From Thermomicrobiaceae bacterium (GTDB lineage Bacteria > Chloroflexota > Chloroflexia > Thermomicrobiales > Thermomicrobiaceae), in NCBI GenBank assembly GCA_014874455.1, contig JADBJL010000110.1:1-35590 (forward strand): a stretch of DNA of 35,590 nt, in the 5' to 3' direction. The position numbers and the translations under genes are program-made. How positions within the stretch are numbered: the first letter of the stretch is position 1; each line of letters begins with the position of its first letter. Below the pieces are notes generated by a model. The model had not been told where the DNA came from. It made no database searches and saw only the letters and a program-made list of their open reading frames with translations. This document shows positions 13,327 to 16,068 of the stretch, piece after piece.

Positions 13327-13685
13327 ACCGACTTCATCGGAGTGCGGCTGCACTCCGATGAGTGGACGAGTGCCCACGCTCGCACCCTTCTCCACTGCGG
13401 AGCTACTATCGGCTGACGGCACCGGATGACCGGTCTACCTCGCAAGCGTGCTTGCTGGTTCAGCGGCCCCTGCGCTCGCACGTCCCTTCAATCGCTCGGC
13501 TCGGTCGCCTGCGCGACTCCGAAGCCGTGCGAGCCTTCTCACCGGCGAGAAGCGGCGACGGGCGCCTGCGACTCCCAGCAATCGTAGCCGCTCGAGGGGA
13601 GGCTGGCGAGACCCGGCCAGGCCATCTGGCTGGCATTCGCCACGCTTTCAGTACAATAGCAACAGCGCGGCCTGAGAGGATGACG
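13327..13685 (+). promoter_or_regulatory. Divergent intergenic region, with TACAAT before the coiled-coil gene
   Basis: These 359 bases separate the EamA operon (-) from the coiled-coil gene (+). They hold the hairpin at 13334-13361, small palindromes (ACCGG-ATGA-CCGGT at 13421-13434 and GCAAGCGTGCTTGC at 13442-13455) and a good -10 hexamer TACAAT at 13652-13657. The matching -35 is weak. Long open frames here have no recognisable protein. Confidence 0.45.
13334..13361 (-). promoter_or_regulatory. Perfect hairpin just upstream of the EamA gene
   Basis: A 12-bp perfect inverted repeat (13334-13345 with 13350-13361, arms TCATCGGAGTGC and GCACTCCGATGA, loop GGCT) lies eight bases before the EamA ATG. 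It would cover the ribosome-binding area if transcribed, or it may be an operator. Confidence 0.6.
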
Positions 13686-14627
13686 ATGACGCTGAGTACC
13701 GACGATCTCCACGAGCTGATTCGCCTGCTGGAGCAGCACCCGGAGTGGCGCGCCGAGCTGCGACGCCTCGTGCTGACCGAAGAACTCCTCAGCTTGCCTG
13801 ACCTCACTCGAGAACTTGCTGACATCGTCCGCCGGATGGTGCAGCTCGAACAGCAAGGGCTGGAGCGTCTGGAGCGCCTGGAGGCGGCCCAGAGTCGCAC
13901 GGCTGAAGCCCTGGCCGGGCTGGCCGGGGCGCAGCAGCGCACCGAGGAGCGGCTCGAGGCGTTAACCGCCCGGGTTATTGACCTCACAGACCGGCTCGGG
14001 CAACTGACCGCCCGGGTGGACGACCTCGCAGAGCGCCTGGAGCAACTGACCGCCCGGGTGGACGACCTCGCAGAGCGCCTGGAGCGGGTCGAGGAGCAGA
14101 TTCTGCAGCTCACCGCCCGGGTCGACGACCTGACCATCCAGGTCAGTGTCCTGGTCAGGACGGTGCAGCGCATGGCCGACGATCTGGGCAGGCTCAAGGG
14201 CTGGGGTCTGGAGGAGCGCGCGCGGCGGAAGGCGCACGCCCTCTTCCGCAGGGTGATCCGCCGCCCGCGGCTCGTCTCCGAAGAGCGGTTCGCTCAATTG
14301 GTCGACGATGCCCAGGATCAAGGCATCCTCTCCCCAGAGGAGGCGGATCGTTTGATCGAGGCCGACGTCGTCGTCACCGGCCAGCGGCCCGAAGACCGGA
14401 GCGAGGTGTACCTGATCGCCGAGGTCTCCTGGGGCATCGGCGTGGAGGACGTGCAGCGGGCGCGGGAGCGGGCAGCGCTGGCGCGGCGCATCGGTCTACC
14501 TGCGGTCGCGACGGTCGTCGGTACGTGGGTGACGCCCGACGCCGAGCGGCTCATCCAGGACGACGGTACGCTGGTCGTCCTGGTCCGGCCAGACGACTGG
14601 ATACCTCGGGGGCCTCGGGAACTCTGA
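13686..14627 (+). CDS. Coiled-coil protein with a C-terminal PD-(D/E)XK-like domain
   Basis: The 313-aa product has three parts. Residues 1-60 are helical and acidic (LHELIRLLEQHPEWRAELRRL). Residues about 60-165 are a long coiled coil with near-identical 14-residue units of the type QLTARVDDLAERLE. The C-terminal 130 residues (RLVSEERFAQLVDDA, EADVVVTG, VYLIAEVSWGIGVEDVQRARERAALARRIG) look like a PD-(D/E)XK nuclease-fold domain. Such coiled-coil/nuclease-fold proteins are widespread and repeated in Chloroflexota and archaea, but have no established role. The usual ExK lysine is replaced (AEVS), so nuclease activity is doubtful. GAGAGG at 13674-13679 abuts ATG 13680 and is six bases from ATG 13686, so the latter is chosen. 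Confidence 0.75.
   Translation: MTLSTDDLHELIRLLEQHPEWRAELRRLVLTEELLSLPDLTRELADIVRRMVQLEQQGLERLERLEAAQSRTAEALAGLAGAQQRTEERLEALTARVIDLTDRLGQLTARVDDLAERLEQLTARVDDLAERLERVEEQILQLTARVDDLTIQVSVLVRTVQRMADDLGRLKGWGLEERARRKAHALFRRVIRRPRLVSEERFAQLVDDAQDQGILSPEEADRLIEADVVVTGQRPEDRSEVYLIAEVSWGIGVEDVQRARERAALARRIGLPAVATVVGTWVTPDAERLIQDDGTLVVLVRPDDWIPRGPREL
14001..14084 (+). repeat. Exact 42-bp tandem duplication in the coiled coil
   Basis: Two identical 42-base units (14001-14042 and 14043-14084) each encode 14 residues, QLTARVDDLAERLE. Diverged copies flank them on both sides (about 13961-14000 and 14109-14140). The exact DNA identity indicates a recent in-frame expansion of two heptads. Confidence 0.9.
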
Positions 14628-15078
14628 GCCACGCTCGCGCCAGAGAGCACCGAGACCCGGGCGTGCATGAGACGATGCCATTGCCCCGTGCGTTCGCGTC
14701 GAACCGTATCCGGCTGGCCGATCCTGCTTACCGCCTCATCGAACACCCTCGCGGCCTCGGTCGTCCTGCTGCTCCATGGCCAACTCGGGCTATGTCTCAC
14801 CGAGACCTCGTCCTAGCACACCGATACTAGGTCGCGCACGCACGACTGGTGCATCGGGACTAGGCACGATAGGTCATCGAAACGGATCGTGCTTCCCGGA
14901 ATACTCCCAGTAGCTGCAGGGGCAAACCCGTCGCGAGGCGGGGGCGCAAAGCCATGGGTCTCCAGAAGCGGGAGATCGCCAGGCTGCCAGCTTTGAAGGA
15001 ACAACCTTCATCGGTGGGTCGGCCTCACGGGGATGCCACCGCAGCGTGAGTGTGGCAATTACCGGCGAGGCGAGACAG
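14628..15078 (+). promoter_or_regulatory. 450-base leader region of the CAP-domain gene
   Basis: No gene is seen in this stretch. It holds a cyclic-di-GMP-I aptamer (14912-14992), then a small hairpin TGAAGG-AACAA-CCTTCA (14994-15010) and a longer-range pairing CGGTGG (15012-15017) with CCACCG (15036-15041), all before the start codon. I cannot name a convincing promoter upstream of the aptamer. Confidence 0.6.
14912..14992 (+). ncRNA. Cyclic-di-GMP-I (GEMM-I) riboswitch aptamer
   Basis: The core GGGGCAAACCC...GCGA...GGGCGCAAAGCCA is the class signature. P1 is AGCTGCAG (14912-14919) paired with CTGCCAGCT (14984-14992). The first helix CCCGTC-GCGA-GGCGGG closes on a GNRA tetraloop (14927-14942). 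The second helix runs GGGTCTCC...GGGAGATC (about 14956-14978) and is followed by GCCAGGCTGCC, equivalent to the conserved 3' strand. The expression platform that follows has no T-run, so control of translation is more likely than termination. It lies 87 bases upstream of the start of the secreted CAP-domain protein. Confidence 0.87.
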
Positions 15079-16068
15079 ATGACTCTCCACCGGCGTTGGT
15101 TCGTCCTCATCCTCGCGGTCGTGTCGGCGACCCTGCTTGTGCCGGCCACCGCGAGTGCAGTCTCTCCGACCGGCTACGAGGTGGCCCCCGTCTTCCAGCG
15201 CTTCTACGCGAGCTACGGCGGTGTCCCGACCTTCGGGTACGCCGTCAGCCCACCAGTCGTCGAGCAGGGGCGTCTCGTGCAGTACTTCGAGCGCCAGCGT
15301 TTTGAGTACCATCCGGAGTACACCGGCACCGAGTACGAGGTGCTGCTCGGCCTGCTCGGCCGGGAAATCGCCGAGCAAGAAGGACGTTCGTTCTCTCCGG
15401 CCGCGCCGCTGGCGGGCTACCGCTACGTCCCCGAGACGGGCCACAACATCGCCCCGCAGTTCCTCGGTTACTGGGAGTCACGAGGCGGCGTCCGCATCTT
15501 CGGCTACCCGATCACCGAGGCGTTTTGGGAGAATGGTCTCCTGATCCAGTACTTCGAGCGCGCGCGCTTCGAGTATCACCCGGAACTCGCCGGTCGTTCG
15601 GACGCGGTCTTGCTTGGTCTGCTCGGTCAGGTTGTCTGGCAGCAGCGCGCGCGAGACGCGCAGTATGCCGACGTCTCGCTGGCCCAGCAGCTCGCCGCGC
15701 TGCTCAACCAGGCGAGGCAGGAGGCTGGCCTTGCGCCTCTTCAGTACGACGCCACGCTCAGCCAGATCGCCCAGCTCCGCAGCGACGATATGGCGAAGCG
15801 GAACTACTTCTCGCACACGTCGCCCGAGGGCACGACAGTGTTCGACATGCTGGGCCAGTGGGGCGTCCCCTGGAGCTATGCCGGCGAGACGATCCAGCGC
15901 AACAACTACCCGCTCGAGGAGACGGCGGCCGAGGCCGCACGGTCTCTGCTCGCCAGCCCGGCCCACCGCGCAGTGATCCTCGACGCGCGGTTCACCCGCT
16001 TCGGCGTCGCGGAGAAGGTGAGTGCGGACGGGATCCACTACTATACTGTCATCTTCGTCCAAGCGTAG
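15079..16068 (+). CDS. Secreted CAP/SCP-domain protein with two FGYP-type repeats
   Basis: The product is 329 aa. A Sec signal peptide (RRWFVLILAVVSATLLVPATASA) is probably cleaved after A27. Two repeats of about 75 residues follow (about 30-185). Each has the form APxFxxxxxxxGGVxxFGYxxxxxxxxxGxLxQYFERxRFEYHPE and ends in LLGLLG, a module seen in Chloroflexota surface proteins. The C-terminal 130 residues are a CAP domain (LLNQARQEAGLAPLQYD, DDMAKRNYFSHTSPEG, SPAHRAVILDARFTRFG). ATG 15079 is chosen because it precedes the signal peptide and has GAGG upstream; GTG 15046 is an alternative. It is controlled by the upstream c-di-GMP riboswitch. A role in surface attachment or wall remodelling is inference. 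Confidence 0.85.
   Translation: MTLHRRWFVLILAVVSATLLVPATASAVSPTGYEVAPVFQRFYASYGGVPTFGYAVSPPVVEQGRLVQYFERQRFEYHPEYTGTEYEVLLGLLGREIAEQEGRSFSPAAPLAGYRYVPETGHNIAPQFLGYWESRGGVRIFGYPITEAFWENGLLIQYFERARFEYHPELAGRSDAVLLGLLGQVVWQQRARDAQYADVSLAQQLAALLNQARQEAGLAPLQYDATLSQIAQLRSDDMAKRNYFSHTSPEGTTVFDMLGQWGVPWSYAGETIQRNNYPLEETAAEAARSLLASPAHRAVILDARFTRFGVAEKVSADGIHYYTVIFVQA

Follow-up and report, generated by a model that had tools for sequence, protein, structure and literature searches.

In Vibrio cholerae, the Vc1 riboswitch controls gbpA, the gene for a secreted chitin-binding colonization factor, and functions as an ON switch (PMC4744006). The Bc2 riboswitch of Bacillus thuringiensis is located upstream of cap, which encodes a collagen adhesion protein, and is likewise an ON switch, acting by transcription read-through (PMC6366702). 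The window analyzed here, a 35,590-nt stretch of DNA from a Thermomicrobiaceae bacterium (Chloroflexota), contains a c-di-GMP-I aptamer that precedes the gene of a secreted CAP-domain protein. Our preferred reading, to which we assign a probability of about 0.58, is that this aptamer belongs to a canonical c-di-GMP-I switch that occupies the leader (5') of one exported-protein gene and turns off its translation; that the RNA binds the ligand, that it acts on translation, and that it acts as an OFF switch are all inferred.

The host, which the earlier note had described as a Chloroflexota-like organism, belongs to the same genus of the family Thermomicrobiaceae as Thermalbibacter longus (L161). 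This genus also includes an uncultured Thermomicrobiaceae bacterium (L160) with a 94% identical CAP protein. The genome of the host encodes four GGDEF domains, three EAL domains, and one PilZ domain. The three GGDEF domains that could be read for motifs retain GDEF, the RxxD I-site (inhibitory site), and the Asp by which diguanylate cyclases are distinguished from cGAMP cyclases. Because this Asp is kept in all three, cGAMP signaling was rejected. The switch would offer a specific c-di-GMP output for testing in a thermophilic, deeply branching lineage in which few c-di-GMP targets are known.

Identity and class of the aptamer

A cmscan search of the whole window with curated thresholds detected two riboswitches (SAM-I and c-di-GMP-I clan). 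The SAM-I riboswitch (24031–23929, minus strand; 74.1 bits, cut-off 44.4) lies upstream of a metE-like gene (23850–21559, minus strand). The c-di-GMP-I aptamer was placed at exactly 14912–14992 on the plus strand, and the signature first noticed there is present, with GGCAAACC, a hairpin with a GNRA cap (GCGA), GCGCAAAGCC, and a closing P1 helix (AGCUG/CAGCU). Its score with RF03167 (c-di-GMP-I-GGC) was 62.0 bits, against a cut-off of 59; over the full length of the model (1–87), it scored 60.4 bits with RF01051 (c-di-GMP-I), well above the cut-off of 35. The E-value of 1.7e-12 over the whole window (RF03167), together with its occurrence only once in the genome of 3.37 Mb, excludes a chance match. 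The aptamer sequence is identical in genome G117 and retains a long invariant run in T. longus while the flanks diverge, that is, it is much more strongly conserved in both than the surrounding sequence. We consider the identification of this element as a riboswitch virtually certain.

The ligand-contact residues of Vc2 are G20, A47, and C92 (PMC4744006), and by alignment all three are canonical in the window aptamer. The equivalents of G20 and A47 are located at 14921 and 14948 (plus strand), with the same spacing of 27 as in Vc2 and Vc1 (PMC4744006), and the CC at 14987–14988 (plus strand) includes the equivalent of C92, the latter two residues being assigned from the alignment to the RF01051 and RF03167 consensus. 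The GCGA tetraloop of the first hairpin occupies 14933–14936 (plus strand). The P3 arm is short and lacks the 11-nt tetraloop receptor; a helical receptor (CU:AG / CC:GG) is possible alongside the GCGA loop. Among the aptamers of the class, an 11-nt-like receptor, as scored by a loose regular expression, accompanies 11 of the 12 GAAA loops and 0 of the 38 other GNRA loops. This apparent covariation of loop and receptor across the class fits a real tertiary fold.

Rfam scores the aptamer best as the GGC variant, 1.6 bits ahead of RF01051, and accordingly, the element could be read as one of the c-di-GMP-I-GGC variants that recognize another ligand. RF03167 is the best-scoring model and has a similarly short P3, but the visible difference that separates it from RF01051 is a single position, where the RF01051 consensus reads CGCAAA and the RF03167 consensus reads CGCGAA. 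The name GGC presumably reflects this difference between the consensus sequences. The window aptamer reads CGCAAA, with the A of RF01051 at position 47 instead of the G that marks RF03167, and the same A is present in 35 of 35 class matches above the RF03167 cut-off. The higher RF03167 score is more simply attributed to the short P3, from which the 11-nt receptor is missing. A variant with a different ligand was therefore rejected on residue 47, and we regard it as very improbable. Based on this residue, here and in the 35 class matches, the sequence is filed as an ordinary c-di-GMP-I aptamer, the GGC label being nominal. In this class, it appears that RF03167 picks up ordinary c-di-GMP-I aptamers whose P3 is short, a point that calls for caution when altered ligand specificity is deduced from the model.

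The CAP-domain protein and its association with the aptamer

The gene downstream of the aptamer (15079–16068, plus strand) encodes a 329-amino-acid secreted protein in which a signal peptide is followed by two LGFP-like (FGYP) repeats and then by a CAP domain. In agreement with the earlier observation that the next gene follows shortly after the aptamer, the best start is the ATG at 15079, 86 nt past the aptamer and 7 nt behind a Shine-Dalgarno (SD) sequence, GAGGC (15067–15071, plus strand), that is conserved as GAGGC/GAGGU; in T. longus, GTG occupies the aligned position. The proposed combination of two FGYP-type repeats with a CAP domain was borne out as well. The two repeats, FGYA/FGYP, cover approximately residues 31–183 (15169–15627, plus strand), and the CAP (SCP/PR-1) domain (PF00188; 15700–16053, plus strand) scored 71.4 bits against a cut-off of 21.1 (E = 1.5e-19). 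AlphaFold2 modeling with six sequences as input yielded a model of moderate quality (pLDDT 72, pTM 0.41). In Foldseek searches, the CAP domain matched the bacterial SCP proteins 4ifa and 4h0a and Borrelia BB0689 (4d53), and the repeats matched the C-terminal domain of Corynebacterium glutamicum mycoloyltransferase A, which we take to be an LGFP-repeat domain. Pfam returned no match to LGFP (PF08310) above the cut-off in the window protein, and the homolog in L018 scored 21.9 against a cut-off of 22. Given this borderline score and the structural match of the model, the repeats are best denoted LGFP-like, not members of LGFP.

The gene upstream of the aptamer (13461–14624, plus strand) encodes a coiled coil made up of a long heptad-like repeat (LTARVDDLAERLE...); it is conserved in the genus and matched no family above the Pfam cut-off among those shown.

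The aptamer is present in 31 of the 158 genomes of the class. In the genus of the host, it precedes the CAP gene in all three species that have this gene; the fourth genome of the genus, which is 81% complete, lacks a close CAP ortholog. Related CAP genes with an aptamer were identified in three other families. Full-length LGFP-like+CAP relatives with 43–47% identity are preceded by the aptamer in G098, which represents a different family of the order, and in G090, from a different family of the class, as are CAP-only proteins in G083 and G090. For the Thermomicrobium orthologs, which are 63–68% identical, a permissive Rfam scan likewise detected no aptamer, so that a diverged version was rejected, as was synteny of the locus because the neighbors are not shared. 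Thus, conservation of the aptamer upstream of orthologs holds throughout the genus of the host but does not extend to Thermomicrobium. The genomes of the Thermomicrobium orthologs (L110, L162, and L163) encode GGDEF proteins, and no c-di-GMP-I aptamer was found in them, which suggests that this riboswitch class was lost in the Thermomicrobium genera.

CAP proteins follow 7 of the approximately 45 aptamers of the class. With 93 CAP genes in the 31 aptamer-containing genomes, about 0.03 such pairings would be expected, or about 0.3 if only the secreted tenth of the genome were eligible; these expectations are based on assumed gene counts, and the seven cases are not all independent, three of them coming from one genus. 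Elsewhere in the phylum, a screen of 80 sampled loci with a small home-made CAP profile identified no CAP gene after an aptamer (0/80; Fisher p = 0.0006), and for these loci the pairing was ruled out. We consider it very probable that the riboswitch regulates the CAP gene.

Expression platform and direction of control

The expression platform looks translational. In all three members of the genus, the SD sequence GAGGC/U is predicted to pair with an anti-SD sequence, GCCUC (15022–15026, plus strand), over an inner GCCAC:GUGGC stem, and the listed pairs between 15022–15039 and 15052–15071 are standard in each of the three species, with no double compensatory changes. The inner stem of this hairpin involves GCCACCGCAGC (15035–15045, plus strand), which is invariant in the three species and complementary to the 5' strand of the aptamer, GCUGCAGGGGC. 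Because two of the three species have an in-frame start farther upstream, conservation of the 15035–15045 segment could be partly coding. No intrinsic terminator is evident by eye in the leader.

The duplex between the aptamer 5' strand and the platform has a z-score of –4.0 in the window (0/200 shuffles) and of –2.9 and –2.5 in the other two members of the genus. Perfect anti-core sequences, GGUUUGCC(C), directed against the aptamer core GGGCAAACC are present in the independent platforms of other genera (G110, G111, G109, and G113), and in G099, an altered core, GGGCACACC, is matched by GUGUGCCC in the platform. Across the class, the 5'-strand z-score is below –1.64 in 8 of the 31 leaders, related sequences included. 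When the aptamer was enforced, SD accessibility was 0.00–0.01, and none of 150 shuffled platforms was as low. That the enforced aptamer hides the SD sequence, and that part of the SD hairpin can base-pair with the 5' strand of the aptamer, suggest strand exchange and an OFF switch. Under this mechanism, the aptamer with bound c-di-GMP would keep its own 5' strand, GCCACCGCAGC would stay in the hairpin, and GCCUC would pair with the SD sequence GAGGC and block translation. Without the ligand, GCCACCGCAGC would invade the aptamer, the hairpin would open, and the CAP protein would be made.

The ligand-free state is predicted less consistently. Whether the SD hairpin opens varies with temperature and with the length of the folded flank. 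Distinct opening is predicted in one context (delta 0.48 at 60 °C; 1/150 shuffles), but it is weak or absent when 30–60 nt of coding sequence are included, especially in T. longus. Robust opening in the free state thus fails with the longer coding flank, and we lowered our estimate for the OFF direction for this reason. An accessibility screen of the 31 leaders of the class showed no consistent SD shift on ligand binding, ruling out a class-wide rule that the ligand hides the SD sequence.

Two other readings of the regulation were considered. The same riboswitch could be an ON switch through which c-di-GMP promotes expression of the CAP protein, as might be expected if this protein served adherence or biofilm formation, in line with the ON switches Vc1-gbpA (PMC4744006) and Bc2-cap (PMC6366702), both of which control surface proteins, and with the formation of the SD hairpin in most of the computed ligand-free ensembles. 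We nevertheless find the ON direction unlikely, considering that the SD sequence is fully hidden once the aptamer is enforced and that the strand-exchange segment sits within the SD hairpin, an arrangement that predicts OFF. Alternatively, control could be transcriptional, via a Rho-dependent or cryptic terminator, or the aptamer could be a relic that no longer regulates. The invariance of the long aptamer run between diverged flanks and the retention of the SD hairpin pairs render this decidedly unlikely, although the free-state prediction is not robust, Thermomicrobium orthologs manage without an aptamer, and only 11 of the 16 c-di-GMP riboswitches of Clostridioides difficile are functional (PMC6366702). 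A translational OFF switch remains the reading that we prefer.

Other targets and comparison with known systems

Other aptamers of the class are associated with genes for subtilases, beta-helix/pectate-lyase-like proteins, glycoside hydrolases, esterases, and TSP3-repeat proteins, and further with ECF sigma factors, one diguanylate cyclase, and one histidine kinase. By a crude measure, 38 of 52 downstream products contain an N-terminal hydrophobic segment. Each Thermomicrobiaceae genome with the aptamer has exactly one switch, and the targets are LGFP-like+CAP in the genus of the host, LGFP-like+beta-helix in G110, and beta-helix in G108, G112, G113, and G114; the LGFP-like+beta-helix genes of G109 and G111 are cut by contig ends. 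Tentatively, the class that includes Thermomicrobiaceae, and by inference also Chloroflexus, might possess a c-di-GMP-I secreted-protein regulon, with one switch per aptamer-containing Thermomicrobiaceae genome, an effector domain (CAP or beta-helix/pectate-lyase-like, with or without LGFP-like repeats) that varies by genus, and a common mechanism in which anti-core strand exchange conceals the ribosome-binding site at the temperature of growth; in this general form, we consider the proposal doubtful.

Several additional aptamer contexts were observed. In several genomes of family f8 (L105, L107, L108, and L031), a distinct aptamer form with the core GGGCAACT is located about 240–330 nt before ECF sigma factor genes. 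In six genomes of family f19, from another class of the phylum (L253, L254, L257, L268, L269, and L278), ruvB, encoding the Holliday junction helicase, directly follows c-di-GMP-I aptamers, in most cases the second member of two closely spaced tandem copies. RuvB was confirmed by Pfam in L254, and the aptamers were confirmed by cmscan in L254, L269, and L278; ruvB is an unexpected target for a c-di-GMP-I riboswitch. In L258 and similar f19 loci, c-di-GMP-I aptamers, often in tandem, precede genes for small secreted proteins whose sortase-domain score is borderline (26.5 against 26.6).

A literature search for the c-di-GMP riboswitch together with the CAP domain found no such paper. The CAP-domain family appears to be a new target of c-di-GMP-I riboswitches, the apparent wider secreted-protein regulon in the class likewise seems to be new, and the association of the aptamer with CAP genes would tie the CAP superfamily to c-di-GMP in bacteria. 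The claim of an undescribed pairing of the riboswitch with a secreted CAP protein is supported and absent from the literature searched, but control of surface proteins without a transcription factor, which had been put forward along with it, is already known for gbpA (PMC4744006) and cap (PMC6366702).

The CAP fold is shared with bacterial SCP/CAP proteins (4ifa, 4h0a, and 4d53; Pfam, Foldseek), which contain N-terminal domains of their own, whereas the window protein has two LGFP-like repeats ahead of the CAP domain. Like Vc1-gbpA, the window aptamer has the same three contact residues and lies directly upstream of the gene for one secreted surface protein. In contrast, Vc1 is reported as ON, its target GbpA is not a CAP-domain protein, and it combines a tetraloop with a receptor, whereas the window aptamer has GCGA without the 11-nt receptor. 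Bc2-cap is similar in that a c-di-GMP-I aptamer is located upstream of a surface protein gene, but cap, for collagen adhesion protein, is a coincidence of naming unrelated to the CAP/SCP/PR-1 domain. The class I riboswitches of C. difficile (PMC6366702) share the class and the OFF direction favored here; they act through transcription termination, whereas for the window a hidden ribosome-binding site is predicted.
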